Positions 468 through 13,425 of a DNA stretch of 14,641 nucleotides are shown here, in pieces. Within the stretch, counting starts at the first letter, position 1, and every line of letters starts with the position of its first letter. Source of the stretch: Rhizobium leguminosarum (GTDB lineage Bacteria; Pseudomonadota; Alphaproteobacteria; Rhizobiales; Rhizobiaceae); NCBI RefSeq assembly GCF_001652265.1, contig NZ_LWBS01000001.1:1-14641 (forward strand), in the 5' to 3' direction. The notes under the pieces are model-generated. The model saw nothing but the letters and a program-made list of their open reading frames with translations, had not been told where the DNA came from and did not search any database. Made by a program: the position numbers and the translations under genes.

Positions 468-470
468 CCG

Positions 471-2511: not shown

Positions 2512-2519
2512 GTTAAGGG

Positions 2520-2745: not shown

Positions 2746-3297
2746 ATGATTAATGCGATCTCTGGGGTGGGGCTGATGATTAAAGACGCGATGTCGGCAA
2801 TTCTTGAAACGCCAGAAGGCAGGCGTTACTTTCGGTTCGCGATATTAGTTACTCTGAGTCTACTTGTATTATGCTTAGTATCGCTACTGTGGATTACGGT
2901 TCAACGAGGATATAATAATGCCCCGATTAATGTATGGGGGCTAGACATCGGCGCGATACCTAGCGGCGGTAGCGGGAAAACGGAGGAGCGGACGACCGAC
3001 GCCGCAAATCCCGATCTGCATAACGTCTATTTCGAATGGAGAACTCCCGATCGAGTTTGGGAAACGGACGGAAGTTGTGAGATTGACCTCATAGAAGCGC
3101 TAAAGCCCGTGCAGTTATCTAGCTTCAAAAAGAGCGGGGAACTGTTCTCAGGGGAGAAGGATGGAGCGCTTATCTTGGCGAGTTGTTATGGTGAAAAAGC
3201 CGGTCGGGGCTCGATGGCAAGTGTTGTAGCTTTCGGTAAAAAGGAAGGTGCGAAAGAATCGATAGATACCTTCTTGGCAATGACGGAGCGTCGCTAA
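2746..3297 (+). CDS. Single-span membrane protein, probable moron gene
   Basis: The 183-residue protein has one hydrophobic segment at about residues 31-52, preceded by basic residues (EGRRYFR). This predicts a short cytoplasmic N-terminus and a C-terminal domain outside the membrane, which holds two cysteines (in DGSCEID and ASCYGE) and a lysine-rich end. No family is recognised. The start is uncertain: ATG 2746 has a weak ribosome binding site, and ATG 2776 follows a GGTGGGG stretch that may be better. It reads against the flanking minus-strand phage genes and is visibly more AT-rich than they are in the membrane segment. Both are typical of a separately acquired moron under its own promoter. 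A TAGAAT hexamer at 2732-2737 could be its -10. Its stop abuts the stop of the convergent gene inside a palindrome. Superinfection exclusion or defence is possible but unproven. Confidence 0.6.
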   Translation: MINAISGVGLMIKDAMSAILETPEGRRYFRFAILVTLSLLVLCLVSLLWITVQRGYNNAPINVWGLDIGAIPSGGSGKTEERTTDAANPDLHNVYFEWRTPDRVWETDGSCEIDLIEALKPVQLSSFKKSGELFSGEKDGALILASCYGEKAGRGSMASVVAFGKKEGAKESIDTFLAMTERR

Positions 3298-3303
3298 TTA
3301 GCG
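3292..3303. repeat. 12-bp palindrome at abutting convergent stop codons
   Basis: CGCTAATTAGCG is perfectly self-complementary. It contains the TAA of the plus-strand gene (3295-3297) and, directly adjacent, the TAA of the minus-strand gene (3300-3298), with no base between them. Its half sites also occur as the arms of the inverted repeat at 11782-11813 upstream of alpA. Confidence 0.6.
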
Positions 3304-3570
3304 CCTCCGCAGCCGCCGCCGAACGGCTGGCTGCCCGAACTCACGAAGCGCCCAAGGCTTTGAGTGCTTGTCAGTCCAATTATCCATGTATTCCTCGCCC
3401 AGCCGCTGCCAGGCCTCCGCAACTGCTGCGTCGTCAGCTCGGCCGTATTCATCCACCTCAATGCCGGCGTCTTTCGCATCGTCGAAATAGTCGCGACCGG
3501 TCTGAAAGATCATTTCCCACGCCATCAGGTCAACGGGGTGGGCTTTTGATTTCCGTCTTTTGCGGGGCAA
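3298..3570 (-). CDS. 90-residue protein linked to the small terminase
   Basis: The start is TTG at 3570. GGAG lies six bases upstream inside the end of the terS gene, and no better start exists. The gap to the terS stop is two bases, so translation is coupled. The protein begins with a basic patch (RKRRKSK) and has an acidic middle (FDDAKDAGIEVDEYGRADD), a Trp-rich helix region (EAWQRLGEEYMDNWTD), and a strongly basic C-terminus (RRRLRRR). This suggests nucleic-acid or packaging-complex contact. No family is recognised. In a full prophage the large terminase would be expected in this place; it is absent. The gene could be an accessory packaging factor, or a spacer gene conserved with terS. 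Confidence 0.65.
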   Translation of the reverse strand: MPRKRRKSKAHPVDLMAWEMIFQTGRDYFDDAKDAGIEVDEYGRADDAAVAEAWQRLGEEYMDNWTDKHSKPWALREFGQPAVRRRLRRR

Positions 3571-3572
3571 GA

Positions 3573-3923
3573 TTATCTCCGGTTGGATCGAAGGGCGGGC
3601 GGCCTAGCGCTGTCGCCTCCGCCATCGAAGTCGAGATCGAGCTCTCGGATAAGCCGCGCAAACGCTAGGCGGCTGTTGTGCATGATCGAGACTTCGGGGC
3701 GCTCCTTGGGCTGCCCAAATCTGTCGGTGAAGGTCTGGCCGTCCCGCTCGATGGTCTCACGGCATGCTTCAGTCTGGTCCAGCGCTTCACATGCTAGGGT
3801 GAGCAAATGATGGTGATGCGCGTCCAAATCCCACTCCTCAACGACGGTTCGGAACCACTTCCGGGTCGCTGGGCGCAGGTGTTTAGGGGCTCTTGGCGGG
3901 CCGGAAGCCTTGGTTTCTGGCAC
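3573..3923 (-). CDS. terS: Small terminase subunit, P27 family
   Basis: The 116-residue protein starts at GTG 3923, preceded by a strong GGAGG. It has the P27-type pattern: an AP-x-HL segment (residues 10-17), a helix with R-x-W-F, a central LTLACEALDQTEACRETIERDG helix pair split around residues 40-62, a GQPKERPEV turn, and a final R-x-AF-x-R-LIRELDLD helix. Small terminases recognise the packaging site on phage DNA and hand it to the large subunit. No large-subunit gene follows: the next genes are a 90-residue protein and an opposite-strand membrane gene. A solitary terS fits a satellite that redirects a helper's large terminase, or a decayed prophage. The 277 bases upstream are the natural place for a cos/pac site. 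Confidence 0.75.
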   Translation of the reverse strand: MPETKASGPPRAPKHLRPATRKWFRTVVEEWDLDAHHHHLLTLACEALDQTEACRETIERDGQTFTDRFGQPKERPEVSIMHNSRLAFARLIRELDLDFDGGGDSARPPALRSNRR

Positions 3924-4200
3924 GTTTGTACCTCCGAATATTTTCTTGAACGGGGGACTCGGTCATGCGCGCGAATGGGGACGCGCGGTACGGGAGAACG
4001 GGTGGTTTTGGAAATCGATCCGCCCCTCCCGGTCAGGCGACAGCGCCCTGCGCGCTCATGCGTGTAAGCGCGCCCAACGTCGTGACATGCGCGCCGCTAC
4101 GGCTAAGCCAGATGCAAATGTTTTTTTATACAGGTTTAGCGCAAGTTAACCCCGGAGCCGGTACCCAGGGCGAGCGAACGCCAAAGGCGACCCACCCCGG
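3924..4200. other. Non-coding gap upstream of terS; candidate packaging/promoter region
   Basis: No gene is supported in this 277-bp interval. Moving toward terS (rightmost first), it holds an AT-rich block with TATAAA and a poly-A tract on the minus strand (about 4120-4135), then a GC-rich stretch with alternating GCGC and CATGCG motifs (about 4050-4100), and a GATCCGCCCCTCC element at 4017-4029 that recurs in two other non-coding places. Cos sites of phages with P27-type terminases commonly lie just upstream of terS. That this one does is an inference from position only. Confidence 0.4.
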
Positions 4201-4407
4201 CTAGACCGGGATGCCTCGCGCCTTCATCGCCGCCTCGGCCTTCGCCTTGACCGATTTCGCGTCCCGCTTACTGAGACGGCGCTCTCGGAGGATTAGTGCG
4301 ATCTTGATCGGATCGTTAGGCAAGTCTGGATCAAGCTTGCCGTTCACGCGGATTTCGTTCTTGACGCGCGGATAGCCGCCTCGTTTAGGTTGGCTGGCTC
4401 GTTCCAT
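4201..4407 (-). CDS. 68-residue basic protein, unknown function
   Basis: The start ATG at 4407 shares its A with the TAA stop of the upstream gene (TAATG), a one-base overlap typical of coupled translation. The protein is rich in Lys and Arg, with a predicted helical C-terminal half (RERRLSKRDAKSVKAKAEA), and ends in ARGIPV. No family is recognised. It is the last gene of the six-gene operon that starts at 6922, and is followed by the non-coding gap before terS. Confidence 0.65.
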   Translation of the reverse strand: MERASQPKRGGYPRVKNEIRVNGKLDPDLPNDPIKIALILRERRLSKRDAKSVKAKAEAAMKARGIPV

Positions 4408-5024
4408 TAGACTTTGAGCTCCTGCGGAATGTCAGATTGTTTGATGAAGCCTGCAGCACCAGCGTCCTTCAGCCAGATGGCAAGCTTGCCGCCCTCGGGC
4501 CCGAAAATGCCGTGAGCTTGGAGCGGCGCCAGGTGGCCAGTCCAGGCAACGTCCTGGGCCGACAGTTCATTCGTCATAGACAGTAGAGCCGCGTGTGCCG
4601 CGTGCGCGGCCAGCAAGGCGTCGGCAAGGGCTTTAACGAGTTCCGCGTAGGTCGGCGCCACTTCTGCGCAGATAACTCTGCTGGCCCCAAAGCGAGCCTG
4701 TGACAGGCGCTGCTGCGCGATCTCGATCGCGGCACGCAGATCGACCCGCTCGCCTGCAATTGTCTTAAGGCGAGCACGCACGCCGTCCGGCGCTTCGTCT
4801 TCTTCCGGGGTTGCGTCGCCAAGGAGGGCAGCCACGCGGCCGGTCTTCTCAGCCGACGGCGGGCGGTTGGCGAGCCGGTGCATGAGCTCGCTTTCTTCGG
4901 TGTCAAGCTTCGCGCTCGAAGCTTTGAGGCGGGTGACAAGATCCTTGGCGGCCGCATAGTTTTGATCGGCCTCCGCCAGGCTCCGAACCCGGATTGCCGG
5001 TTTTGCCGGCGCTGATTTTTGCAT
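4407..5024 (-). CDS. 205-residue helical/coiled-coil protein, unknown function
   Basis: Start ATG 5024 has AAGGACATAAGC upstream and follows the previous stop (5027) by two bases. The sequence is Ala-, Leu- and Glu-rich and predicted almost all helical. Residues 15-55 and 85-110 look like coiled coil; there is an acidic linker near 70-80 (DATPEEDEAPDG), a very Ala-rich helix near 130-148, and a C-terminal segment ending in KQSDIPQELKV. It has no signal peptide or membrane span. It could be a scaffold-like or capsid-interfering protein, but nothing in the sequence establishes this. Its place in a coupled operon between two unknown genes and its neighbour terS suggests a function in particle formation or redirection. 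Confidence 0.65.
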   Translation of the reverse strand: MQKSAPAKPAIRVRSLAEADQNYAAAKDLVTRLKASSAKLDTEESELMHRLANRPPSAEKTGRVAALLGDATPEEDEAPDGVRARLKTIAGERVDLRAAIEIAQQRLSQARFGASRVICAEVAPTYAELVKALADALLAAHAAHAALLSMTNELSAQDVAWTGHLAPLQAHGIFGPEGGKLAIWLKDAGAAGFIKQSDIPQELKV

Positions 5025-5026
5025 GC

Positions 5027-5539
5027 TTATGTCCTTGTGTATCGGTCGCGCAGCCGCGGGCGGCCAGCGCGCACTTCCGGTGCATTGGCAATAGCCGCGG
5101 CGAGTTTGATGAAGACTTCGGGCCCAATCCTCACTTCACGGTCAAAGGCCGGCCTCGGCTTAGGCGCTGGGGGGTAGAAGCTGATTGCCTGGACGCCGCG
5201 GTCTGGGCCACGGAAGGTCACTGAAGCGCCAGGAGCCAACGTCTCGATCTGCAGCTCGAGCAAATCAAATGGCTTCTCGACGAGGCCGGCGAGGACCTTG
5301 CCGAAGGTTGGCCCGCCGGTGCCTGGCTTTAGATTGAGGTAATCATCGACGAGGGGCGACCCTACAGTAATCGCAACCAGGATCGCGGCGATGTGTTCGC
5401 TGCTGATCTGGCCGGGGTAGCCCTGCGACGCTGGCAGCACGCCCGCCAGCCTCAGCCGCTGGGCGTGCCCTCGTGCTGAAGAAGGTGGCAGGCGCAAAAC
5501 CTCGTCCAGCGCCGCGCACGTTTGGCGGAGCGTCGCCAT
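5027..5539 (-). CDS. 170-residue protein, unknown function
   Basis: ATG 5539 is chosen over upstream in-frame starts because those would overlap the preceding gene by up to 258 bases. At 5539 the ATG lies one base after the preceding TAA (TAATATG), giving coupled translation. The N-terminal 60 residues look like a helical bundle, possibly a winged-helix-type DNA-binding fold (RLPPSSARGHAQRLRLAGVL). The second half has strands and a Pro-rich loop (YPPAPKPRPAFDREV), followed by a final helix and a basic tail. No family is recognised with certainty. If the DNA-binding reading is right it could regulate late genes or take part in packaging; this is inference only. Confidence 0.65.
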   Translation of the reverse strand: MATLRQTCAALDEVLRLPPSSARGHAQRLRLAGVLPASQGYPGQISSEHIAAILVAITVGSPLVDDYLNLKPGTGGPTFGKVLAGLVEKPFDLLELQIETLAPGASVTFRGPDRGVQAISFYPPAPKPRPAFDREVRIGPEVFIKLAAAIANAPEVRAGRPRLRDRYTRT

Positions 5540-5540
5540 A

Positions 5541-5855
5541 TTATGCGGCCTGCCACATGAACTTGTCGCCGGGCTCCGGATAGACGTCCACGTCCGTGTT
5601 AGCCGGGATGGGTACGCGGATGGTGCCGGCGGAGTTGGCGGACTTCCCATACGACAGCCAGGAGTCCGCCGTTGCTCGGGCGCGGAAAATGGCGGCGCCA
5701 GAGGCGTCATTAATGTCAGGCGCAGAGTTGGTGGATGCAACGCCAGTCGATGGCGCCTCCTGCCAGACAAGCCTGCCGAGGAGGGAGTGAGAGGCATATC
5801 GCGCGGCGCTGGATCCTGCGTAGCCGCAGGTCACGGTGAAGGCTGGGAGGGCCAT
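5541..5855 (-). CDS. 104-residue protein, unknown function
   Basis: ATG 5855 has a clear AAAGGAAA ribosome binding site. The protein is Ala/Ser/Thr-rich with short predicted beta strands, ending in a PIPANTDVDVYPEPGDKF segment and MWQAA. It has the look of a small beta-sandwich protein such as a virion decoration or fibre-tip domain, but no specific family is recognised and there is no signal peptide. It is followed after one base by the 170-residue gene, and lies 12 bases after the stop of the preceding small gene. Confidence 0.65.
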   Translation of the reverse strand: MALPAFTVTCGYAGSSAARYASHSLLGRLVWQEAPSTGVASTNSAPDINDASGAAIFRARATADSWLSYGKSANSAGTIRVPIPANTDVDVYPEPGDKFMWQAA

Positions 5856-5867
5856 ATTTATTTCCTT

Positions 5868-6065
5868 TTATGTGTGAGGTTTTGTGAAAGCGGAAACGCC
5901 CGCAGGGCGGTGGCTCTGCGGGCGCTCGATCAACCGCGCCAATATCGGGGCAGCCGACGGCGCAGGATTTTCGAAGAAAAGGCCGATCGCGTGAACTGCA
6001 ACGCGACCGGCAAAATTAAAGGCCGCCGAAGCAAACCTCTCATAAGTTAGATTCGGTATGGCCAC
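5868..6065 (-). CDS. 65-residue protein, tentative
   Basis: An open frame starting at GTG 6065, 11 bases after the stop of the 281-residue gene, with AGGTG eight bases upstream. The product has a hydrophobic N-terminal half (FASAAFNFAGRVAVHAIGLF) and a Pro/Arg-rich C-terminal half. It fills the only hole in an otherwise continuous operon, which favours a real gene. Against it, its C-terminal codons run through a perfect 9-bp inverted repeat that looks like an intrinsic terminator, so the segment could instead be an untranslated spacer with an attenuator. Confidence 0.4.
   Translation of the reverse strand: MAIPNLTYERFASAAFNFAGRVAVHAIGLFFENPAPSAAPILARLIERPQSHRPAGVSAFTKPHT
5897..5924 (-). terminator. 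Strong hairpin inside the operon (attenuator candidate)
   Basis: CGCCCGCAG (5897-5905) and CTGCGGGCG (5916-5924) form a perfect 9-bp stem with a 10-base loop. On the minus strand the stem is followed by TTTCCGCTTTC. It would reduce transcription from the first operon gene(s) into the genes from 5855 onward, or process the message. Confidence 0.5.
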
Positions 6066-6076
6066 TTTGGGTGCAC

Positions 6077-6922
6077 CTAGTCTGCGGTGTCCCAGTCGAT
6101 GAGCAAGCGAGCCGCTTGCCGAAGGCCACACAACAAGCGGTCTTTGCCCACGGCCTCGGCCTGCTTTCCCGAAAAGCCGCCTGAGGTGCCTATATGTAGG
6201 AAGCCCATGCCGGCCGTGGCGTCATAGACGGCTTCGTAGTGCTCTGGCGCCATCCGCGTTTTGATCCATGCTAAGCAACTACGAGCGTCGAAATTGTCGT
6301 TCGCTGGCGTGACGATATCTGTTGCCGCCGTCTTTCCGGGCTTCTGGCCTCTGGGGTCTCGCGCCTTGCGATCGCGCGGCGTGGAAACATTATCGGGGTG
6401 CTTCGGATGGGACGGCTTGACCCACGTATCCTGGTCACTCCCGTGGTACTCGCGGTTCAGCCGATAGCCGCAAATGACACCAACATCGTTGAAGCGGAAA
6501 CGACCGTGTTCCCGCAACTCCGCGACTTCTCGCTCCGGAGCGCACGGCAAACTCAAGGGATGCGGATCGAAACACCGGACCGTGCCGTTGGTGAAGTCTT
6601 CTAGGATTTTACCGGCTGATCGGCCTGAAACCTCAACAATGGCCGGGCCGCCGATGTAGTCCCCTTCATCAGCGGCAGACGGACGGGAGTATTGGCCTTC
6701 TTCTGCCCTAGCATAGCCGACGTCGGATTCCGCCGAGGCAAGAATTGCATCGATCCGGTTGAGTGTTTGGACGGCTAGAAGATTTTCTTCTGGCGATGGA
6801 AACAATCTGCCGGATTTTGCGCGAGCCATCACGGGCGCGCGCTGGGTGTGCTGAAAGTTGTCGTTTGCCGCGATATAGGCGAACGACTGCGCCGGCTCGA
6901 TGAGCCGCGTTGAAGATTTCAT
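6077..6922 (-). CDS. 281-residue protein with two ANDNF motifs, unknown function
   Basis: Start ATG 6922 has AGGA nine bases upstream. No known domain is recognised. Visible parts: an N-terminal tail with AANDNF at residues 18-23; a helical region with EENLLAVQTLNRIDAILA (45-62); a central mixed region with several Cys and His; a basic, Pro-rich disordered linker (170-200); a second ANDNF at 207-211; and a helical C-terminal domain from 213 to 281 (LAWIKTRMAPEHYEAVYDA, then a Gly-rich turn and LLCGLRQAARLLI). It is the first gene of the minus-strand operon running to 4201, and a TTGACA plus ATTTGTATGTTTA element lies about 95-115 bases upstream. The repeat of the same tail motif before the C-terminal domain suggests a two-module protein. 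Confidence 0.65.
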   Translation of the reverse strand: MKSSTRLIEPAQSFAYIAANDNFQHTQRAPVMARAKSGRLFPSPEENLLAVQTLNRIDAILASAESDVGYARAEEGQYSRPSAADEGDYIGGPAIVEVSGRSAGKILEDFTNGTVRCFDPHPLSLPCAPEREVAELREHGRFRFNDVGVICGYRLNREYHGSDQDTWVKPSHPKHPDNVSTPRDRKARDPRGQKPGKTAATDIVTPANDNFDARSCLAWIKTRMAPEHYEAVYDATAGMGFLHIGTSGGFSGKQAEAVGKDRLLCGLRQAARLLIDWDTAD

Positions 6923-7009
6923 CGATACAGTTCCTATGAAGTTTGCGTTGCCGTCCGCTTGGCGCGGATCTCGTCATTGGGGCGGAGGGTGGCTGCAACC
7001 ATCTGAAAC

Positions 7010-7037
7010 ATTGACCTAAACATACAAATTTGTCAAC
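7010..7037 (-). promoter_or_regulatory. Promoter/operator box A upstream of the 6922 operon
   Basis: On the minus strand TTGACA (7036-7031) is followed directly by ATTTGTATGTTTA (7029-7017) after one base, with CAATGT in the -10 position. The palindrome ACAAATTTGT overlaps the -35. The same 13-mer occurs upstream of alpA, and a variant upstream of int, so this is a likely regulated promoter. Confidence 0.55.
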
Positions 7038-7112
7038 GCGCTTCACAGTTTCACCGAAAAGTCAACTGCAAATCTTGTGATGTCCGTGACTCAGAAACTC
7101 GGAATATCTAGG

Positions 7113-7136
7113 GGTCCACCAACGAAAGGATGGACC
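7113..7136 (+). promoter_or_regulatory. Inverted repeat enclosing the ribosome binding site of the 26-residue gene
   Basis: GGTCCA (7113-7118) pairs with TGGACC (7131-7136), which ends exactly at the ATG at 7137. The loop holds AAAGGA. The structure could modulate translation of the small membrane peptide; the stem is only 6 bp. Confidence 0.35.
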
Positions 7137-7217
7137 ATGACCCTTCTCCAGGTCGCCTACGTCATGATCGCCGTGTCTTATGTCGTCGCCCTAATCGCGC
7201 TGGCGGGCGGGCATTGA
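7137..7217 (+). CDS. 26-residue membrane peptide
   Basis: ATG 7137 follows AAAGGATGG and the frame closes with TGA at 7215-7217. The product is one hydrophobic helix (VAYVMIAVSYVVALIALAGG) with a short polar N-terminus, long enough to span the membrane once. Peptides of this kind include small toxins, holin-like and superinfection-exclusion factors, but no homologue is recognised. It reads opposite to the two flanking minus-strand genes, and the 120 bases to its left carry the divergent promoter box of the 6922 operon. Confidence 0.45.
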   Translation: MTLLQVAYVMIAVSYVVALIALAGGH

Positions 7218-7470
7218 CGCTTGCCATGGCGCCATCTCCAAATTGCGAATTTTGCGGACGTGAACAATTTGTTGCCAGACCGGTCCAATGGAGACTGGCC
7301 GGCGAACCGTGATCCGCCCCTCCGGCACGCCAAAAAGTTCAATGTTTTCTCGCGCGCGCGTTACGCACGCGTGGGAATTTCTGTAATTGCATTAGTGATG
7401 AGGGAGGCGGCCGGTACGCTGTGGCGGCCGTGGAGGGATCGGAGGTACCCCGGTGGAGGGGGCGAGCTTT
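7218..7470. other. Non-coding stretch in accessory island
   Basis: These 253 bases hold no gene I can support. They include a copy of GATCCGCCCCTCC at 7311-7323, a CG-alternating patch (about 7351-7371), and a short CGAGC/GCTCG inverted repeat across the stop of the next gene (7463-7480) that may act as a weak terminator for it. Confidence 0.4.
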
Positions 7471-8109
7471 CTACTGCTCGTAAGTGCCGCAGATCGGGTC
7501 TTCACGGCGGTTGTAGGATGGCTCCCAGCTTACCTTGATTGTGCAATGGTACTTGTAGGTGACCTTACCTTTCCAGTCTTTGTCACTTTCCTCATGGGAC
7601 GTTACAGTTTCCCAAGTATTCTGCGGGCCGATCGACCTAGAACTAATGAAAGATGCGGCGACCTGGTTGCACCACCACGGTTGATCGTGCCCACCACCAA
7701 GCCGCCCGGATGAGTCAGAATAATTTTCCGTTCGACGCCATCCAATCTGCCCAAACTCGGGGCGCTCGCAAGCGACAAACTTCACTTTCTTTCGAATATC
7801 AATAATCTTCATCAGTTCGATCTTGCACATACTGACAGTAGGTATGTTCGATGGAAGTTTATCGAAGGGAATTCCGTTATACATTTCTTTAACTTGACCC
7901 CCGCTCACGTTTGCCGACCCCGACAGTATTTTAGCCAGCAGGCCAGCATTCACCTCCACTTTTCCAGATATGGAAGTTTTTGAATATTGACCAGAAGGGA
8001 TGTCTCCACAAATACTTTGCGAGAAGTCGCTTATCGCCTTATAGTCTTGAGAATATGCAATATTTACAGATGCTACAAAGGCAGCAAGAGTAATGGCAAC
8101 GGTTTTCAT
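7471..8109 (-). CDS. Exported cysteine-containing protein, unknown function
   Basis: The 212-residue protein starts at ATG 8109 behind GGGAGG. It has a clear Sec signal peptide (MKTVAITLAAFVASVNIAYS, cleavage after about residue 20), so it is periplasmic or secreted. Six cysteines in the mature part (SICGD, VSMCK, VACER, WWCNQ, YHCTI, PICGT) could form three disulfides. An N-terminal module of about 80 residues contains KVEVNAGLLAKILSGSANVSG and YNGIPFDKLPSNIP; I have a sense that this module recurs in rhizobial exported proteins but cannot name it. The second half is Trp-rich. The gene is AT-rich compared with its neighbours, and TACAAT (on the minus strand, 8129-8124) offers a -10 for its own promoter. 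It is an accessory gene within the island and divergent from the GIY-YIG gene. Confidence 0.7.
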   Translation of the reverse strand: MKTVAITLAAFVASVNIAYSQDYKAISDFSQSICGDIPSGQYSKTSISGKVEVNAGLLAKILSGSANVSGGQVKEMYNGIPFDKLPSNIPTVSMCKIELMKIIDIRKKVKFVACERPEFGQIGWRRTENYSDSSGRLGGGHDQPWWCNQVAASFISSRSIGPQNTWETVTSHEESDKDWKGKVTYKYHCTIKVSWEPSYNRREDPICGTYEQ

Positions 8110-8352
8110 AATCGCCTCCCTCTATTGTAGCTAAATAATACAACAAAAATGGTGAAGCGCAACCATCTCTAGAAAATCCGCTCACTACTCACTCAAGCTA
8201 CCATACGGTTCGAGCCCTAACTTCCATGGTTGCTGACCGCCCAAAAACAACATGTAGTGCTAGAATCCGAAAAAAATGGCTTCTATTGTGATTCCCTAAT
8301 GTTCTGTCATCATCTTTTCCGGAGGGTTTGATTCGAACCATCGGAGCTTAAA
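8110..8352. other. AT-rich divergent intergenic region
   Basis: These 243 bases separate two divergent accessory genes and are clearly more AT-rich than the surrounding DNA. A -10-like hexamer for the leftward gene is at 8124-8129. No RNA gene is supported. An isolated GGTTCGAAT on the minus strand (8339-8331) resembles a tRNA T-loop but has no matching stem. Confidence 0.4.
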
Positions 8353-8808
8353 ATGAGCACTGGCATCTTCGGACTTCTCGCGGCACCATCGCACGATCAA
8401 TTCCATCATTGGCAAGGGCACTCGGGCCAATGGTGGATTACTACGGTCTTTCCCTTATTTTCCTCACACATCACAGGCCCATCTGTCTACGTGATGGTTC
8501 GCAGGGATGACGCCGGCCGAGCCTACCCGCTGTACATTGGACAAACGTCCGACACAGCCCGGCGGATGGAAGAACACCTGCATGATAAGGTGCTGCAGGC
8601 CATTCGCCTTGGCGGCAACGAACTCCATGTTCACCTGCTGGCGAAACCCGAGGCTGAGCGCTTCGCAATAGAAACCGACCTACGGAATGGGCACAACGCT
8701 CCGCTCAATCGTCAGCACAGTGCCGCCGTCTTTGGCGGCTTGTTTGGCCTTGGCGCAGCGCAGATTGAAAAACGCAATCAAACTCTCGCAGGGTTGCTGG
8801 CCGGTTGA
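8353..8808 (+). CDS. GIY-YIG domain protein
   Basis: The 151-residue protein starts at ATG 8353 with GGAG seven bases upstream. Residues 43-122 carry the GIY-YIG nuclease pattern: SVYVMV (44-49, the GIY strand), PLYIGQTSD (59-67, the YIG strand), Arg70/Arg71, His75, Glu107 in AIETDLRN (the metal-binding glutamate), and Asn119 in PLNRQ. The first motif lacks the usual Gly. About 40 extra residues precede the domain and 30 follow it. The family cuts DNA in repair, homing and restriction. A small free-standing protein in a mobile-element island could be a mobility or anti-phage nuclease. It reads opposite to the replication gene and ends shortly before a 10-bp inverted repeat and the iterons. 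Confidence 0.75.
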   Translation: MSTGIFGLLAAPSHDQFHHWQGHSGQWWITTVFPLFSSHITGPSVYVMVRRDDAGRAYPLYIGQTSDTARRMEEHLHDKVLQAIRLGGNELHVHLLAKPEAERFAIETDLRNGHNAPLNRQHSAAVFGGLFGLGAAQIEKRNQTLAGLLAG

Positions 8809-8824
8809 TGCTGACCACCCTGCG

Positions 8825-8853
8825 CTGTGGCACCATGAAACACGGTGCCACAG
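8825..8853. repeat. Perfect 10-bp inverted repeat after the GIY-YIG gene
   Basis: CTGTGGCACC (8825-8834) and GGTGCCACAG (8844-8853) are exact reverse complements around a 9-base loop. It lies 17 bases after the stop of the GIY-YIG gene and about 100 bases before the first iteron. It has no U-run, so it may be a terminator of modest strength, a replication-origin hairpin, or a protein-binding site. Confidence 0.55.
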
Positions 8854-8952
8854 CCGTATTACGTGCGGTTGGGTTGACCAGCGCCCCGGCTAACTGAGCG
8901 CGGCGATCGGCGTTATCGTATGGTTGCATTTCAATCTGGTACATCAAAAAGT

Positions 8953-9090
8953 TTCCACACCACCACTTTGCTAAATTTCTTCCACACCACCACCCCACCC
9001 CACCATAAAGGCGGGGGTGTGGGTGGTGTGGAATGGGGAATCTCCACACCTTCCACACCTTTCCACACCTCAGTTTTGCATGGTGTGGAA
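8953..9090. repeat. Iteron cluster, probable replication origin of the element
   Basis: The nonamer TTCCACACC occurs at 8953-8961, 8980-8988, 9051-9059 and 9061-9069, inverted at 9025-9033 and 9082-9090, and with one mismatch at 9042-9050. Three copies at 9042-9069 are spaced 9-10 bp, about one helical turn. TTCCACACCACC (8980-8991) and GGTGGTGTGGAA (9022-9033) form a perfect 12-bp inverted repeat whose inner bases also partly pair. The last copy lies inside the 3' end of the replication ATPase gene. A modestly AT-rich segment (about 8911-8955) flanks it and could be the unwinding region. Origins of P4 and PICI satellites lie next to their pri/rep gene, supporting the call. Confidence 0.7.
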
Positions 9091-10968
9091 AACAGGAACC
9101 AAGCAGGGCCGCTCAATTCCCTTGTAGTCGGGCCGCTGCTCGATCGTGAAATGGCCAGCCTCTTTCCAGGCCTCAAGCATTCTCCTTACGCGCTTCTTTT
9201 CGGCTGGGTCAGTCAGGTTGATGCGAAGAGCCTCGGCCACCTTGTAACCTGCCCAATCGCTGGCTTGAACGCTGTCCCGGCAATCACCGCCGTCTATTTT
9301 GCGCTTGATGGCTTCCAGTTCTTCGGCGGACACAAACGCGGTTGCTTCCGACTTAGCCGGCCAGCGCCAGGGAGCGACAACGCCAATTTCGTCGCCCGAC
9401 TTGATCAAACCCTTGCCGTTCATAAGTGGCACGGTAACGAACCGGCGCCACTGACTGCTCGATGATGCCGCGGTCATGTTGGTCTTGCCGAAGTCTACGC
9501 GGAAGAACCCGCGGTGATCGTCGAGGCCGGCTTTCTCGCCCTCCTCCTTCGTCATCGCATTGATGGTGCGCACAGACCGCGCAGCATCTTTCAGGGCGCC
9601 ACCGCCACGAGCAGAGTCGGCCGTCACTTCGAAGTTGCCCTTGGTGACATGGTGGATGAGCTCAACGCTGCAGTTGCCCTCATCGGCTACTCGACGCCAC
9701 GCCTTAGCAACACGCTGCATGAGGTTGTTGTCATTCTCAGGAACCTCATGGGTCGAGACGAATGGGTCGACGACAACAATGTCGATCGCGTTTTCACGGA
9801 TGGTGGCAAGCATATCATTTACCATCGGCTCGCAGACTTTGAAGTCGCGCCCTTCCTGTCGCATGATTACAAACTCCTGATCACGTCCGGAGTCGGTGAA
9901 AAGGCGATCGGCGATGCTTTCTTCCGTTACGTTGAAGTGCTTTGCAGCAGCGACAAAACGGCGGTCGATTTCATCCTGTGGATCCTCAGCATTCACGTAC
10001 CAAACACGAAGAGGAGCGCTTAGGCCCGCCTGTCCATCAAGCAGCGGACGGCCCGTTACCATCGATAAAGCTTCCGATACGGCGTGCGCCGACTTACCGC
10101 CACCGCCGGCGCCCACGGTGATCGAGAGATAACGACGGATGTAGTGTCTGGCATGAAGCCATTCGCGTTCCGGAATCGAGGCAGGGTCTTTGAGTCGAAA
10201 CGGACTGGCGACGAGCCGCTTTGGTTTTACTGGCAGTTCAACGAACTTGCTGCCCAACCGACTCGTGAACAAGGCCCGACCATCTGCGAGAATCTGGATT
10301 TTGCCAGTGAGACCACCGACGACGGCGCCGAACAATGTGCTGCCGCTTATGAAGGCATCCTTGGCGGCGAAGGCGGCCAGGTAAGGGACTAGCCGCTCGT
10401 CATGCTGTGGCACGTTGTCGTTGGCGGCCAGTGGTTCGCCCTTTGGCTCATCGCTAGCTGCAGGATCAACATCACGCTCTGCGAGATTGGCGCGCGCCAT
10501 CCGCTCAAGCCACTTCGGGCGATGGCCGGCCACGAAGCCTTTGCGGTACGCCAGGATCTCAATCTCCGCTTCAAGCGGCGGCAGGCCGTGCCATTTCTCC
10601 TGAAGGGGCCTCAGGCCGGTAATGGCATCCGTTACTAGCTCTACGGCCGCTTCACACGGCTCGCCATCAATCTGCTGGATGAGCGGTGTGCCACTGCGCC
10701 ATAGCGTTAGGACGGTCGCATCCTGACCTTCGTCGATAAATCGAAAGAAGCTGTCGGTGACGATACCGAGCCGCGGGATGTCTTCATCGGTCATGTCTGA
10801 CCAGTGAGATATCTTCGTTAGTGCATCCCGTGTCAGGCCCTCGAGGTTATCAGGGTCCGGCACCAGTACAACGTCGCCTGACAGCTGCCAGAGGGCGGCC
10901 TTGTTGACCTCGTAAAATGCATCGCGGTGTGGTCGCGGGTCTGGTTTAGGCTGCTTTAGTGCGGTCAT
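9070..10968 (-). CDS. RecA-fold AAA ATPase, probable replicative helicase (RepA-like)
   Basis: The 632-residue protein has a RecA-like core: Walker A GAGGGGKS (286-293), Walker B IDIVVVDP (395-402), an ELIHHVTKG segment (436-444) and an S-A-R-GGGALKDAAR segment (452-464). These are as in AAA_25/RepA-type hexameric helicases. The N-terminal 250 residues are of unknown fold and carry an acidic Pro-rich linker with AANDNV (181-186). The C-terminus from about 545 to 625 looks like a winged helix (DWAGYKVAEALRINL then RRMLEAWKEAGHF) that could bind the iterons beginning at its own stop codon. Start ATG 10968 has a weak ribosome binding site; it overlaps the preceding gene by 23 bases, so translation is probably coupled. 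No primase motifs are evident. It is likely to unwind the element's origin during replication; a purely host function is unlikely in this context. Confidence 0.8.
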   Translation of the reverse strand: MTALKQPKPDPRPHRDAFYEVNKAALWQLSGDVVLVPDPDNLEGLTRDALTKISHWSDMTDEDIPRLGIVTDSFFRFIDEGQDATVLTLWRSGTPLIQQIDGEPCEAAVELVTDAITGLRPLQEKWHGLPPLEAEIEILAYRKGFVAGHRPKWLERMARANLAERDVDPAASDEPKGEPLAANDNVPQHDERLVPYLAAFAAKDAFISGSTLFGAVVGGLTGKIQILADGRALFTSRLGSKFVELPVKPKRLVASPFRLKDPASIPEREWLHARHYIRRYLSITVGAGGGGKSAHAVSEALSMVTGRPLLDGQAGLSAPLRVWYVNAEDPQDEIDRRFVAAAKHFNVTEESIADRLFTDSGRDQEFVIMRQEGRDFKVCEPMVNDMLATIRENAIDIVVVDPFVSTHEVPENDNNLMQRVAKAWRRVADEGNCSVELIHHVTKGNFEVTADSARGGGALKDAARSVRTINAMTKEEGEKAGLDDHRGFFRVDFGKTNMTAASSSSQWRRFVTVPLMNGKGLIKSGDEIGVVAPWRWPAKSEATAFVSAEELEAIKRKIDGGDCRDSVQASDWAGYKVAEALRINLTDPAEKKRVRRMLEAWKEAGHFTIEQRPDYKGIERPCLVPVFHTMQN

Positions 10969-11218
10969 TGGCGATCTCGTGCCCCTCGAAAAACATGGAA
11001 GCTGCGGCGGTTATCTGGCGGGAAAGCGATGTAGACGCGGTGATAGACCGTCCGCCGCCGGACACGGATGGAAAGAAGGTCCGGCGCCCTTTCGGTGTGT
11101 CGACAAGCTTTAAGCCGCACAGACGGAGGTCGTCAGTAACTTGCACGCTGAAGCGAGCAAGCACGTGGGCGCTTTCTCCGGCGAAGCCGCCGGACGTTTC
11201 GAAGTCAATGATTCTCAT
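10946..11218 (-). CDS. 90-residue protein, possibly SpoVG-like
   Basis: ATG 11218 is preferred to an upstream TTG (11239) because AAAGGGAACG precedes it. The centre reads as alternating strands: ARFSVQVTDDLRLCGLKLVD, then a PKGRRTFFPSV turn and a C-terminal helix (LSRQITAAASMFFEGHEI). This order of strand, D-x-x-x-L-x-G-x-K-x-V, Gly-x-x-x-x-x-P and helix is reminiscent of the small DNA-binding protein SpoVG, but the match is weak and by eye only. Its end overlaps the start of the replication ATPase by 23 bases, so it probably works with it, for instance as an origin or single-strand binding factor. Confidence 0.65.
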   Translation of the reverse strand: MRIIDFETSGGFAGESAHVLARFSVQVTDDLRLCGLKLVDTPKGRRTFFPSVSGGGRSITASTSLSRQITAAASMFFEGHEIANDRTKAA

Positions 11219-11246
11219 CGTTCCCTTTCTCGCGCACAACGGCGCG

Positions 11247-11267
11247 CCTGCCGACGTTGTCGGCGGG
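11247..11267 (-). promoter_or_regulatory. Hairpin between alpA and the downstream gene
   Basis: CCTGCCGAC (11247-11255) pairs with GTCGGCGGG (11259-11267) as nine base pairs including one G-U, with a 3-base loop. It lies 29 bases upstream of the ATG at 11218 in the transcript from alpA. There is no U-run, so attenuation or mRNA processing is more likely than termination. Confidence 0.45.
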
Positions 11268-11349
11268 TTAAGTCTGTGATTTGAACTTATCGGGCTAGGC
11301 GGGGATTTTTCGCGTCACATAACGGGTTTGAACGGATCGGCGCGCGAGG

Positions 11350-11559
11350 TCATGCGCTCACCCTCGCGGCAAGTTTCGCTTCGATCCAGGCCTGGACCTC
11401 GATGCGGGAGAAAGCGATTCGTTTCTCGCCCAGAGCGACAGCGGCAGGAAATGTTCCTTCGATCCGAAGGCGGTGAATCATGGTCTTGGACATGCTCGTC
11501 AAAGCGCAGGTGTCCCGGAGAGAAATCAGGGCAAAGTTGTCGTTGCTTGCGGTCGGCAT
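11350..11559 (-). CDS. AlpA-family (MerR-like HTH) transcriptional regulator/excisionase
   Basis: The 69-residue protein starts at ATG 11559 behind GAGGAG. It has the AlpA pattern over almost its full length: LISLRDTCALTSMSKTMIHR (helix-turn-helix), then LRIEGTFPAAVALGEKRIAFSR and EVQAWIEAKLA. AlpA-like proteins in satellites and prophages activate integrase/excision or replication genes and can serve as recombination directionality factors. An ASNDNF motif precedes the domain at residues 4-9. It lies between the integrase and the replication genes, behind an inverted-repeat operator and promoter box B, so it is the likely regulator of the boxes found upstream of three transcription units. 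A plain excisionase is the alternative role. Confidence 0.8.
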   Translation of the reverse strand: MPTASNDNFALISLRDTCALTSMSKTMIHRLRIEGTFPAAVALGEKRIAFSRIEVQAWIEAKLAARVSA

Positions 11560-11781
11560 GGTGTCTCCTCTTCAAAGCCGCGGACGGAATCCGGGCGCGA
11601 GATTGATCGTTAAGATTTGAGAAGGTTCGGTGACCGGCGCGCCATGGCCGGGTTGAGGTTAATCGACGCTCTCATGAGAGCCACCCTCTTCGGTCGGGCA
11701 GTCCGGCAGCGATGCTGCGGCTAGCGGGTGCGGGTCTTATGGATTCTCACCAGCCGCACCTCAGCGGGCACCACCCCGCGC

Positions 11782-11813
11782 ATTAGCGAAAATCCACCAC
11801 AAATCTCGCTAAT
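11782..11813. promoter_or_regulatory. Operator-like inverted repeat upstream of alpA
   Basis: ATTAGCGA (11782-11789) and TCGCTAAT (11806-11813) are perfect reverse complements with 16 bases between, so equivalent positions are 24 bp, just over two helical turns, apart. They lie immediately downstream of promoter box B in the alpA direction. This suits a dimeric repressor or AlpA itself. Confidence 0.5.
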
Positions 11814-11821
11814 GATTTGAA

Positions 11822-11850
11822 AGGTAACGTAAACATACAAATGTTCCAAG
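11822..11850 (-). promoter_or_regulatory. Promoter/operator box B upstream of alpA
   Basis: On the minus strand TTGGAA (11849-11844) is followed by ATTTGTATGTTTA (11842-11830) and then TACCTT at the -10 position. Compared with box A at 7010-7037, 20 of 24 positions from the TTG onward are identical, including the whole 13-mer. The shared block lies in the -35/-10 spacer, where a bound protein would repress or remodel the promoter. Confidence 0.55.
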
Positions 11851-11869
11851 TGTACCAAGACGAAATAAA

Positions 11870-13057
11870 TCACTTGACGCGTTTGTTTACAAAATCGGGT
11901 GCGGCAGCGAGATAGTTGGACCAGTCGATCATGAGTGCCCGGCGCTTCTCGAGGGCGTCCGATCGGCGATAAGCTTGCTCGATCGCATTCCCAATGGCAT
12001 GTGCCAGCGCCTGCTCGGCGACTTCGCGAGGGTGGTCGGTCTCGTCTCCGCACCAGTCGCGAAACATCGATCTGAGACCGTGCAAGGTCGAGGCCTTGTC
12101 GGGCGACGCAACACGAAGAGCTTTGGTCATTGCCGTGTCAGATACAGCCTTATCTCCACCAAAGAGAAACGGCCCGGTCGCCACTGCCCGCATGGCATTG
12201 ACGATTTCAATTGCGCGATCAGATAACGGCACGGTGTGCTCTTTCCCCATTTTCATGCGAGTCGCCGGGACGGTCCAAGTTTTGGCTTTCATGTCGAATT
12301 CAGCAAACTCGGCCAGCCGTGCTTCGCGTGTTCGGGTAGCGGTAAGCGCCAGGAGTTCTACCGCCCGTGCGGCGATGCCTGAAGACGCTCTGAGGTTCGC
12401 CGCAAGAACCGGCGCGGCTGCGTAGGCGAGGGCGGCGTGATGCCCGCGCTGCAGTTTTTGGCGGCGCGGCATGACTTTATCCAATAGACCCTTCCAGCGA
12501 GCCGGGTTGCCAGCCGTGCGCCACTCATGAGCAATGGCGTAATCGATCGTCGCCTGGATGCGCGATCGCAGGCGGTCGGCAGTTTCGGGCCGCTCGTGCC
12601 AATGGGGGAGAAGGCAGTCCTTCACATCGCCCATAACGACATCCGCAACCGGCATTTGGTGGAGCGGCTTCGCATACTCTCTCAGGGTCATCCGCCACTG
12701 ATCGGCGTGCTTAGGATTCGTCCACTCCGATTCCTTGGCCGCGATCAGGGCTTCCATACAATCATGGAAGGTCTTGGGGCGATTGGCCTTCTTGTCTGCG
12801 CGAGGATCTTCACCGCGAGCAAGCTGTTGCCGGATCGCATCGGCCTTTTCACGTGCCAGGACTAGACTGACCGGCGCCGTGCCCGCTCCATATCCACCGA
12901 GGCCGATCTCGTTCCGATCTTCTCCCCGGCGCCATATGAAGACCCAATTTCGGCTCCCGCCCTTCTGGACGCGTATATAAAGACCATCGCCATCCCCGTA
13001 GACGCCCGGGTTTGTCAGGCTCTTAATCTTCGTCTCAGACAGCTTGTTACGCGCCAT
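11870..13057 (-). CDS. int: Tyrosine recombinase, P4-type integrase
   Basis: The start is ATG 13057, with GGAGGG four bases upstream; a GTG at 13072 lies upstream of that site and is unlikely. The 395-residue protein has the family order: an N-terminal DUF4102-like arm-binding domain (KLSETKIKSL, GDGDGLYIRV, then WVFIWRR), a core-binding helical domain (about 95-190), and a catalytic domain. Catalytic residues seen are Arg242 (TRTREAR), a Lys in MKMGKEHTVPLS, His326 and Arg329 (HGLRSMFRDW), His353 (LAHAIGN) and the nucleophile Tyr363 (EQAYRRS). It inserts and excises the element by site-specific recombination. It lies at the right end of the element, reads inward, and has its own promoter region with box C. 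It looks intact. Confidence 0.9.
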   Translation of the reverse strand: MARNKLSETKIKSLTNPGVYGDGDGLYIRVQKGGSRNWVFIWRRGEDRNEIGLGGYGAGTAPVSLVLAREKADAIRQQLARGEDPRADKKANRPKTFHDCMEALIAAKESEWTNPKHADQWRMTLREYAKPLHQMPVADVVMGDVKDCLLPHWHERPETADRLRSRIQATIDYAIAHEWRTAGNPARWKGLLDKVMPRRQKLQRGHHAALAYAAAPVLAANLRASSGIAARAVELLALTATRTREARLAEFAEFDMKAKTWTVPATRMKMGKEHTVPLSDRAIEIVNAMRAVATGPFLFGGDKAVSDTAMTKALRVASPDKASTLHGLRSMFRDWCGDETDHPREVAEQALAHAIGNAIEQAYRRSDALEKRRALMIDWSNYLAAAPDFVNKRVK

Positions 13058-13095
13058 AAAACCCTCCGCCACACCGCAATCTTGTAACGGTTATC

Positions 13096-13126
13096 ATAAC
13101 GTACAAATGGAACATATGGAATATGT
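13096..13126 (-). promoter_or_regulatory. Integrase promoter region with box C and inverted repeat
   Basis: On the minus strand ATTTGTACGTTAT (13108-13096) is a variant of boxes A and B (11 of 13 positions). It runs into TATGAT, a good -10 candidate (13099-13094). Directly upstream lies ACATAT-GGA-ATATGT (13112-13126), a perfect 6-bp inverted repeat that may be an integrase or repressor operator. The integrase ATG is about 35 bases downstream of the -10. Confidence 0.5.
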
Positions 13127-13161
13127 AAGGGAAATCAGGCGTTTGTAGCCCGTATGTTCCG

Positions 13162-13195
13162 TAAAAACGGCGGAGGGGCGGACATCTTCTCCGCC
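13162..13195 (-). terminator. Intrinsic terminator on the minus strand upstream of int
   Basis: GGCGGAG and CTCCGCC (13189-13195 and 13169-13175 on the plus strand) form a 7-bp GC-rich stem with a 13-base loop. On the minus strand the stem is followed by GTTTTTAC. It ends transcripts entering from the right, insulating the integrase. This implies a minus-strand transcript from the 13200-13430 interval, whose 3' end would be a natural integration target. An outer inverted repeat (GGAAATCAG 13130-13138, CTGATTTCC 13199-13207) encloses it. Confidence 0.6.
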
Positions 13196-13425
13196 ATTCT
13201 GATTTCCTGAGCGTGTGTCGATCGTTGGTTTCTGGCAGGGAATCATATTCGCTTAGTCGGCTAGGCTGGCGACGAAAAATCTCTCTGCCTTTGAGCGAGA
13301 GAATCGCCTGCGGGAATCACCTCCTGCGCGCAAACCACCGGCAGGTGGCGAAAGCGGATCGGTGCATGTCCGGTTACGCTTCCGGCAATCATGAATCCCC
13401 ACAAGAGCCGTTTTTTGTCAAAAAA

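Follow-up and report, generated by a model that had tools for sequence, protein, structure and literature searches.

A tRNA-Ser island of Rhizobium leguminosarum with a small terminase and a tail fibre of its own, a probable phage satellite with relatives across the Rhizobiales

What is an integrated element that encodes a small terminase and a tail fibre without the large terminase, portal and capsid of a phage? The question is raised by a stretch of 14,641 nt from Rhizobium leguminosarum (GCF_001652265.1, NZ_LWBS01000001.1, positions 1 to 14,641, forward strand), referred to here as the window. Judged by sequence comparison, the element is probably a phage satellite of the gram-negative PICI type belonging to a family of the Rhizobiales, which would use helper heads through its private TerS and place its own fibre in the helper tail. 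The basis for this is the gene content, the integration site, the length, the lack of TerL and portal genes within mapped ends and tail parts homologous to those of rhizobial siphophages and a resident prophage; from these we infer mobilisation, TerS–TerL pairing, incorporation of the fibre and an effect on host range. The features of the window are given below, with fractions referring to the 34 loci of the family and L061 being the closest relative, from Rhizobium sophoriradicis.

1–127, no strand: insertion sequence end, repeated in the genome, which breaks the element and ends the contig; outside the satellite proper
128–470, no strand: element DNA downstream of the tail fibre, continuing into contig C435 (L158 4382 down to 1383), from alignment to L061
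471–2471, − strand: tail fibre, 666 aa, with a phage-type N-terminal region of ~190 aa and a GDSL/SGNH hydrolase domain at 470–624 (phrog_38233, 2.3e-77; PF13472, 7.4e-13)
2520–2747, − strand: small gene before the fibre (blastp; short homologues in L040, L041, L061)
2746–3297, + strand: 183-aa protein, cargo candidate (57% homologue at the equivalent position in L061)
3298–3570, − strand: 90-aa protein after terS, detected in 27/34 loci
3573–3923, − strand: small terminase subunit TerS (P27/Terminase_4), 116 aa (PF05119, 29.7 bits, cut-off 24.7; phrog_83)
4201–4407, − strand: 68-aa protein in the slot held by a prohead protease in 23/34 loci (locus comparison)
4407–5024, − strand: 205-aa protein, in 26/34 loci
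5027–5539, − strand: conserved protein, in 29/34 loci
5541–5855, − strand: 104-aa protein (52% homologue in the resident prophage, contig C121)
6077–6922, − strand: 281-aa protein (60% homologue in L069)
7471–8109, − strand: 212-aa protein of low GC whose start resembles a signal peptide (by eye), accessory gene candidate (ORF features)
8353–8808, + strand: GIY-YIG-like protein, accessory gene candidate (PF01541, E 0.0059, below cut-off; homologue in L066)
8953–9090, no strand: iteron-like cluster of CCACACC repeats, candidate origin, at the 3′ end of the replication gene
9070–10968, − strand: AAA_25 replicative helicase-type initiator (replication ATPase; PF13481, 2.9e-36)
10946–11239, − strand: conserved 97-aa protein before rep (homologues in relatives)
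11350–11559, − strand: AlpA-type regulator/excisionase (PF05930, 8.3e-10)
11870–13072, − strand: tyrosine integrase with arm-binding domain (PF00589/PF22022/PF13356)
13183–13199, no strand: attR core CATCTTCTCCGCCATTC, 3′ end of tRNA-Ser GCT
13200–14641, + strand: host flank, comprising the region before a porin gene and its first part (83–89% to insert-free host loci)

The element is an island of 16.06 kb at the 3′ end of tRNA-Ser(GCT), spread over two contigs of one genome. Its 17-bp att core occurs once in the window, once in the stretch of contig C435 (L158 1383) and once at an insert-free site (G223, L143 8388). The C435 stretch (G000:C435, L158 4382 down to 1383) carries an XRE repressor-like gene, an HNH-like gene and attL, which lies in tRNA-Ser(GCT). 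A 56-bp match (85.7%) sets window position 128 at L061 13869, while the C435 end (L158 4382) falls at L061 13866, and in the R. sophoriradicis alignment the two contig ends therefore abut. The assembly broke here because of the insertion sequence beside the tail fibre; 126–128 bp of its end are identical at nine further sites of the genome, six of which are at the first base of a contig. The preliminary description of this DNA, made from the letters alone, had suggested looking for empty sites, and insert-free versions of the integration site are present in close relatives. Its limits for the element, 3298–13057, lie inside the island but are too narrow, as the true end is at 13199 (attR) and both the C435 part and the tail fibre gene, which its gene list stopped short of, also belong. 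Its genome of about 13 kb is replaced by one of about 16 kb, and its genes do not all lie on one strand, the GIY-YIG-like gene and the gene at 2746–3297 being on the + strand.

The integrase, AlpA, replication ATPase and P27 small terminase that it had named were each recovered by a Pfam profile match, and its iterons also stood: with one mismatch allowed there are four copies of TTCCACACCNCC, all within 8953–9072, where 0.26 would be expected, and none of 200 shuffles reached four or more. The window has several features of a gram-negative PICI: an island of 10–20 kb with defined att sites, here 16.06 kb, an integration zone with integrase and AlpA, and a replication gene, the AAA_25 gene, adjoining a candidate origin, the iterons at its 3′ end. 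A complete head, packaging and tail gene set is likewise missing, from the six-frame searches of the window and the C435 stretch and from the 34-locus matrix. The six-frame profile search of the window gave no TerL, portal, capsid, prohead protease, major tail protein, p015, p011 or tape measure, which agrees with the earlier report that terL, portal, capsid and tail-tube genes are absent. The TerL, portal and capsid of a capsid-forming PICI, the same genes with those for the tail tube of a prophage, and the tape measure and tail assembly chaperone of a PLE are therefore not found in the window; with neither protease nor tape measure, the fibre is its single tail part. P4-like satellites have sid, psu and delta as marker genes, and no profile for these was among the named matches of the general Pfam and PHROG family scans of the window.

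In the terS tree the window lies within a 15-row clade that holds satellites only (support 100/97). Its TerS had no tblastn match at 1e-5 among 50,697 phage records, a megablast of the window against the same records gave no match, and the satellite TerS shows only a distant likeness to that of phage 16-3 (hhalign probability 66%). Of the six coupled genes beside terS in the preliminary description, those at 5541–5855, 5027–5539, 4407–5024 and 4201–4407 are indeed adjacent or overlapping, though 6077–6922 stands 221 bp upstream of 5541–5855. The likely start of 5027–5539 is at 5539; a longer ORF reaching 5797 overlaps 5541–5855. The AlphaFold2 model of the 4407–5024 product consists nearly entirely of long helices (pLDDT 89.9, pTM 0.69), and the protein may be scaffold-like.

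To place the window among its relatives we compared 34 non-redundant loci, the window and 33 others found by terS, from seven named Rhizobiales genera. The set leaves out duplicates (L043, L044, L045, L048, L095), a contig without terS (L046/L047), a partial terS (L088), loci found by rep (L038, L039, L050–L052, with TerL in L038 and L039), L049 and other stretches of the window's own genome, L054–L060 and further short search loci, and non-rhizobial loci, other layouts and fragments (L079, L084, L089–L091, L093, L098–L108, L110–L112), among which TerL adjoins terS in L084, L100 and L108. L072 and L073 were retained though they end soon after terS. The profiles for the locus matrix were home-made and iterative and ORFs were called simply; with these, TerS was found in 34/34 loci, a prohead protease in 23/34, a capsid gene in 5/34, a tape measure in 23/34 and a fibre or spike in 19/34. 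AlpA was detected in 7/34 and integrase in 19/34, some loci stopping short of that region. Relatives by the replication gene only (42–44% identity) sit in the phage-like TerL contigs L038 and L039. L061 shares the terS-to-fibre layout of the window at 56–72% protein identity, and differs in having a protease and another replication gene.

The first ~190 residues of the fibre match those of rhizobial siphophages, with 61.6% identity to p023 of phage 16-3 across 190 residues, and the prophage fibre of the same genome, while the receptor end differs. The window fibre is matched by 16 of the 17 other fibres, the exception being L086, and in 14 of these the match is confined to 164–217 N-terminal columns at 49–68% identity; it extends over 293 columns in L061 and 313 (55%) in the own-genome prophage. 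Several of the tape measures retain the two termini of the phage protein, and it is their central part, and hence their length, that differs. The satellite proteins (n = 23) have 435–992 aa, median 656, and those of rhizobial phages and own-genome prophage (n = 12) 593–1065 aa, median 859 (Mann–Whitney p = 0.004), the comparison being one of related sequences, with a convenience sample of phages and a frame break in the L076 gene. Shortening is a tendency only, as L070, L075, L077, L078, L083 and L109 exceed their best match in length. A homologue of 16-3 p015, chaperone-like or tube-like, is present in 8/34 loci. We read it as a probable tail assembly chaperone because it lies between the major tail protein and the tape measure and the phi3LM21 gene at that position carries this name; in the records of 16-3 and RHph_TM3_3_14B it is ‘tail tube protein’, and going by these names the eight loci may carry a tube-like gene.

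Such tail parts might be captured passengers without a role in the satellite's own transfer, as for the capsid gene of an enterobacterial PICI. Gram-negative PICIs capture late genes, and one PICI capsid gene is dispensable for transfer according to the sections of PMC10111431 drawn on here; the tail parts also vary among members, and three loci show neither a tape measure nor a fibre (L069, L072 and L073, the last two ending 0.75 and 1.9 kb past terS). This would seem unlikely, however, as a tape measure or fibre/spike is found in 31/34 loci, several tape measures retain both phage-protein ends around a middle of different length, and loss of tmp lowered PLE11 transduction by roughly 99.9% in the part of PMC12987554 considered. 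Alternatively, fibre and tape measure might act against the helper by disrupting the assembly of its tails, instead of being of use in satellite particles. Satellites often interfere with their helpers and tail assembly is a known target (Tai, PMC11364771; Rta, PMC12987554; both from excerpts), but interference would seem to need less than long fibres whose C-terminal domains are distinct and include a predicted hydrolase, and we regard this explanation as improbable.

A satellite is also suggested by the ends of the relatives. A direct repeat of the tRNA 3′ end (14–83 bp) lies at a fitting distance in 10 of 16 loci with tRNA genes tested, and the 13 end-mapped elements (these ten, the window and two nested ones) measure 14.8–17.2 kb (mean 16.2, sd 0.7). 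The similar gene order and near-constant length that had been proposed as a check are found, in line with the satellite family in Rhizobiales that had been suspected. TerL or portal genes occur in 3/34 loci only: in L075 and L097 they lie outside the element's direct repeats, within the prophage surrounding the satellite, and in L109, where the contig begins, a portal fragment stands before the first gene of the satellite. No homologous locus in which the same flanks enclose terL, portal and capsid genes, an arrangement that would have spoken for a deleted prophage, was seen among the 34 loci. TerL PF03354 gave 16 matches in 10 of 25 genomes, portal PF04860 matches in 14 of 27 genomes or records and TerL PF03237 in 19 of 30 genomes; from coordinates, contig extents and the lack, in the loci, of any ORF as long as the match, our reading is that none is inside an element, those at G267:C28, G287 and G288 adjoining one. 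Family scans covered 116 proteins (145 aa and longer) from ten elements, and among the 25 commonest of 38 and of 132 families, Phage_capsid and HK97-gp10_like each matched 1/116 and PHROGs named ‘major head protein’ up to 10/116. We read the latter, tentatively, as the protease hitting protease–capsid profiles because Phage_capsid matched 1/116 and, of those ten elements, L076 alone gave a match to the capsid profile. The least probable explanation is a defective prophage, in which a siphophage had shed terL, its head genes and most of its tail genes while terS and the fibre stayed behind by chance: the late genes are clearly phage-derived, fewer are present in the window than in most relatives, and the window has an insertion sequence, but random decay would not preserve the same gene set, order and length in 13 end-mapped elements at several different tRNA genes with TerS 43–73% identical, nor the layout shared with L061 despite its protease and different replication gene, so that recurrence, length and att evidence all disfavour a deletion derivative.

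The preliminary description had asked for prophages with a suitable terL in the same strain, and three PF03354 TerL genes lie outside the window in this genome, one of them among what looks like a full set of siphophage head and tail genes. The prophage on C121 has TerL, portal, capsid, connector, major tail protein, tape measure, central fibre and fibre. No PF03354 or PF03237 TerL was found in G257 (R. sophoriradicis), G266 (Bradyrhizobium sp. Rc3b) and G280 (Bradyrhizobium MAG), and these therefore have no resident helper of these TerL types. On induction of a helper, for which the C121 siphophage-type prophage is the candidate, the satellite would excise from tRNA-Ser and replicate from its iterons using its own helicase, and its private TerS would steer the helper TerL so that satellite DNA is packaged in helper-made heads. 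The satellite fibre would join the helper tail via its conserved N-terminal domain, and the particles would thereby bear a different receptor-binding and hydrolase end. Relatives would additionally swap the tape measure, in some cases together with a chaperone-like gene and one for tail completion, as well as the prohead protease or a capsid protein. Most likely, such satellites use helper virions but swap in specificity parts, giving chimeric tails. More tentatively, it is possible that a widespread rhizobial family supplies one specificity part per assembly step (TerS to select the DNA; protease or capsid protein in the head; a length-altered tape measure, in some with chaperone and tail-completion protein, in the tail; the fibre to bind the receptor) and so combines the helper's shell and tail tube with its own host range.

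As far as the sections of PMC10111431 used here describe them, gram-negative PICIs and HE-PICIs resemble the rhizobial family in having int and alpA first, a variable zone, a replication gene beside the origin and a zone of captured late genes, and also in their 10–20 kb, genes mostly in one direction and capsid genes in some; two or three rhizobial relatives sit, like HE-PICIs, within the head genes of a prophage. They differ in their primase, where the rhizobial family has an AAA helicase or O-like initiator, and the family has its own TerS in 34/34 (the loci having been found by terS) and tape-measure and fibre genes; the tail genes mentioned in that source are not those of the rhizobial family, which is a pointer and not a like-for-like contrast. 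In the portions of PMC12987554 considered, the tape measure and hub encoded by the Vibrio cholerae satellite PLE11 enter virions, a result of 2026 for one Vibrio family, which its authors call the first such family. The PLE tape measure comes with a tail assembly chaperone, and 8/34 rhizobial loci have a chaperone-like gene; the helper's other tail parts are used, as they would be by the rhizobial family, and the PLE11 tape is shorter than its helper's, as in several rhizobial members. PLE11 is, however, proposed to take fibres from ICP1 and encodes a baseplate hub, whereas the rhizobial family encodes fibres and a private TerS and has mostly siphophages as phage relatives; ‘Rhizob’ is absent from the main text of PMC12987554. 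Putative tmp genes are present in some cf-PICIs (Extended Data Fig. 10 legend, PMC12987554), where protease and capsid genes also occur, but cf-PICIs encode the head and both terminase subunits according to the part of PMC10690885 used, unlike the rhizobial family with no TerL or portal inside mapped ends. The same part describes MiniFlayer, a Streptomyces phage satellite that also encodes a tail fibre, though with its own terminases, portal and capsid and with fibres that attach to the helper's neck. Fibre-encoding satellites of the rhizobial kind look new.

If this is correct, a second family in unrelated hosts, with the receptor-binding fibre encoded by the satellite, would mean that satellites can choose hosts independently of their helpers, and a satellite could enter cells closed to the helper, helper lysogens among them. 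This would change the prediction of satellite gene flow in rhizobia, a well-studied and genetically tractable group whose matched satellite–prophage pairs permit a direct test of host choice.

Three further genes of the window are cargo or accessory candidates. The 7471–8109 product had no family match, and the PADLOC scan of 10 candidate cargo proteins gave nothing but a weak GIY-YIG match (8353–8808, PDC-S14, 1.7e-5). The 2746–3297 product has one hydrophobic segment near its N-terminus (by eye) and no PHROG or PADLOC match, with Pfam matches below cut-off only. In L040 and L041, what looked like opposite-strand cargo separating the tape measure from the terS operon proved to be shadows of + strand genes homologous to 16-3 p015 and p011. 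The opposite-strand genes that still stand are that of the window and L061 (2746–3297) and an AbiJ-type gene (PF18863) in L044.

The window, which is one entire contig (G000:C1, 14,641 bp) of a draft host genome of 472 contigs (93.4% complete, 5.4% contaminated), is well supported as a satellite of PICI-like type that encodes its own TerS and tail fibre. Its features, from the host flank leftward, are:

Right end: host DNA, including a porin gene with relatives in Rhizobium and Sinorhizobium
Next, in order: integrase, AlpA, a 97-aa gene (10946..11239, minus strand), an AAA_25 helicase-type initiator, iteron cluster, accessory genes
Continuing leftward: small uncharacterised genes, P27-type terS (3573-3923, minus strand) and its 90-aa partner, a 183-aa gene on the opposite strand, a small gene, a 666-aa tail fibre
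Left edge, first 127 bp: the end of an insertion sequence, with the same DNA at nine further places in the genome (six are contig starts)

The host-side end lies at position 13183, the 3' end of a tRNA-Ser(GCT), where homology to insert-free relatives starts. In one such relative (G223) this tRNA is intact and both flanks adjoin, as they also do in G220 and G205. Contig C435 of the host genome holds a complete tRNA-Ser(GCT) and, after it, the element's other end. A 17-bp core is found once each in the window (13183), the C435 stretch (L158, 1383) and the insert-free stretch of G223 (L143, 8388). C435 also carries an HNH-like and an XRE-type gene, homologues of which lie behind the tail fibre in relatives (both in L040, the XRE gene in L041 and L061). 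When aligned to L061, from Rhizobium sophoriradicis, window base 128 corresponds to 13869, within a 56-bp match, and position 4382 of L158 on C435 falls at 13866. The contigs thus abut with four bases in common, an overlap which fits insertion of the insertion sequence between them. As they abut, the element is about 16.06 kb long and, unless genes came in with the inserted DNA, it has no hidden room in which terL or head genes could lie.

A search with the terS alignment gave 31 loci from genome collections and 24 from virus collections, in addition to loci from relatives' genomes; within the host's family, 6 of 199 genomes have terS relatives, its own included. After duplicates and non-rhizobial or fragmentary loci were dropped, 34 loci including the window were retained, the named genera being Rhizobium, Mesorhizobium, Ensifer, Bradyrhizobium, Ochrobactrum, Nitratireductor and Pseudaminobacter. 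Sixteen tRNA-bearing loci were checked for a direct repeat of the tRNA 3' end at a suitable distance; ten have one, and none was found in L075, L078, L080, L083, L085 and L097.

Elements bounded by a direct repeat of a tRNA 3' end (locus, length, tRNA, repeat)
L061, 15.8 kb, tRNA-Pro, 83 bp
L064, 16.2 kb, tRNA-Asn, 17 bp
L066, 17.1 kb, tRNA-Phe, 53 bp
L068, 15.7 kb, tRNA-Met, 15 bp
L069, 17.1 kb, tRNA-Pro, 48 bp
L071, 16.4 kb, tRNA-Met, 14 bp
L076, 15.9 kb, tRNA-Lys, 47 bp
L087, 16.3 kb, tRNA-Ser, 15 bp
L040, 17.2 kb, tRNA-Pro, 80 bp
L092, 14.8 kb, tRNA-Lys, 49 bp

Adding the window and the nested elements L075 and L097 gives 13 lengths with a mean of 16.2 kb (sd 0.7). TerL and portal genes occur at three of the 34 loci only (L075, L097 and L109): in the first two they are outside the element's direct repeats, while in L109 there is an N-terminal portal fragment before the first satellite gene. 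The preliminary description had proposed a candidate phage satellite at 3298..13057, and the satellite call is well supported by the PICI-like gene set, the defined attachment ends, the insert-free sites, lengths of about 16 kb and the location of TerL and portal, which are not inside the mapped ends.

Genes were counted using home-made profiles built up from proteins of the window, the satellites and phage 16-3. Apart from terS, by which the loci were selected (34/34), the commonest families are the homologues of window genes 5027..5539 (29/34), 3298..3570 (27/34) and 4407..5024 (26/34), all on the minus strand; integrase was found in 19 and AlpA in seven. A prohead protease is present in 23 loci and a major capsid protein in five, with a frame break in L076; six loci, the window included, lack both. 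Tape measures occur in 23 loci, and homologues of the 16-3 genes p015 and p011 in eight and nine. Fibre or spike genes were seen in 19: eleven of the window type, four of two further types, and four (L062, L064, L074 and L096) identified by PHROGs for tail, fibre or virion proteins. A tape measure, a fibre or spike, or both are found in 31 of the 34. The 16-3 major tail protein and connector profiles matched none of the 34 loci; L094 has homologues of a tail terminator and of a head-closure protein, and L097 has a tail terminator homologue as well. In scans of 116 proteins from ten elements, the Pfam family seen most often was prohead protease (9), then integrase (6) and tape measure (5); the leading PHROGs were those named major head protein (10), followed by integrase and head maturation protease (9 each). 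Since Phage_capsid matches one of the 116, we take the major head protein matches to be probable proteases hitting protease-capsid profiles. The counts show the surrounding family as a graded set of predicted satellite-encoded head and tail parts.

Seventeen other fibres, from rhizobial siphophages (16-3, NV1.1.1, phiLM21, phi3LM21, RHph_TM3_3_3 and RHph_N28_2), satellites and the resident prophage, were set against that of the window. Fourteen match it over the N-terminal 164-217 columns at 49-68% identity and no further; the match extends over 293 columns in L061 and 313 (55%) in the resident prophage, and the L086 fibre does not match. This is the pattern of a putative common virion anchor with swapped receptor ends. 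The satellite tape measures fall in several phage families, and some retain both ends of the phage protein with a shortened middle: residues 393-609 of the 859 in 16-3 face about 50 residues in L040 and L041, and L071, L086, L092, L094 and L097 are similarly shortened. The match of the L068 protein to RHph_Y3_1 is limited to the N-terminal 655 of 1065 residues, and six satellite tape measures exceed their best match in length. Tape measure or tail genes of very different phage types (TMP_3, PhageMin_Tail and baseplate-wedge-like) sit on the same satellite chassis at L042 5649-6956, L044 3628-5427 and L064 12214-13806, suggesting that helper morphologies may differ.

The host genome has three PF03354 TerL genes. 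The prophage on contig C121 encodes TerL, portal, capsid, connector, major tail protein, a p015-type gene, a 731-aa tape measure, a central fibre and a fibre whose N-terminal domain is common to the satellite fibre; we infer that it is the best helper candidate. The satellite terS profile has a distant match in the terS of phage 16-3. A 54-row terS tree places the window in a clade whose 15 rows are all satellite loci (support 100/97), with L061 as its sister (100/100); the satellites overall are not a single clade, with five changes, at least three of them forced by starred branches. A PF03237 search gave matches in 19 of 23 satellite-bearing genomes, which may include gene-transfer agents and are thus weak evidence on helpers; G271 has PF03354 instead, and neither was found in G257, G266 and G280. 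Downstream of the C121 prophage tail fibres is a gene (L049 9651-9965) 52% identical to satellite gene 5541-5855. Another prophage, on C55 (L161 13855-16308), has a 41% homologue of the satellite 97-aa gene and an AAA gene immediately before TerL; the latter was found by iterative profile alone and has no direct blastp hit to the window rep, so it is uncertain whether the two replication modules share an origin.

The best reading of these gene sets is a proposed mechanism in which chimeric particles would form, with host recognition set by the satellite. Chimeric tails have been shown for PLEs, where the tape measure, chaperone and hub come from the satellite; PMC12987554 calls PLEs the first such family and also mentions putative tmp genes in some cf-PICIs. 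Gram-negative PICIs are already known to be organised in four zones and to capture late genes, and satellites embedded in helper late genes are known too (PMC10111431). A Streptomyces satellite encoding its own fibre and its own head is described in PMC10690885, and no terminase gene has been identified in the Pseudomonas satellite AH14b (PMC4936722). Neither a rhizobial satellite family nor a fibre-encoding satellite without its own head was found described among the open-licence full texts searched, though absence there is not proof.

Some family members are nested in prophages. In Ochrobactrum sp. CM-21-5 (G267:C28:47474-63519; L075 and L173) a 16.0-kb element, flanked by a 16-bp direct repeat, lies at the terL 3' end of an HK97-type prophage, whose portal gene is immediately behind the satellite integrase. 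At L097 5674-20354, continuing on G287 (L174), a 15.5-kb member with a 14-bp repeat and its own capsid gene interrupts a prophage major capsid gene, the C-terminal part of which is behind the satellite integrase; this arrangement resembles the helper-embedded PICIs in the published account (PMC10111431). L109, where the portal fragment (18-368) is at the contig start just before the satellite's first gene, is possibly a third embedded element. Outside the 34, eight loci (L079, L093, L098, L099, L102, L103, L106 and L107) have terS near protease and/or capsid genes, with no TerL profile match in these often short stretches, and may represent another satellite layout. L044 (the same locus as L082) carries an AbiJ-type gene (PF18863; 2528-3523) on the opposite strand between the terS operon and the tape measure, likely a defence cargo spot. 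Partial relatives of terS, which cover 41-56% of the query at 65-73% identity, occur on plasmid pRL11 of Rhizobium johnstonii 3841 (L088 10001-10144) and in 12 other Rhizobium plasmid records, and are possibly remnants of such satellites.
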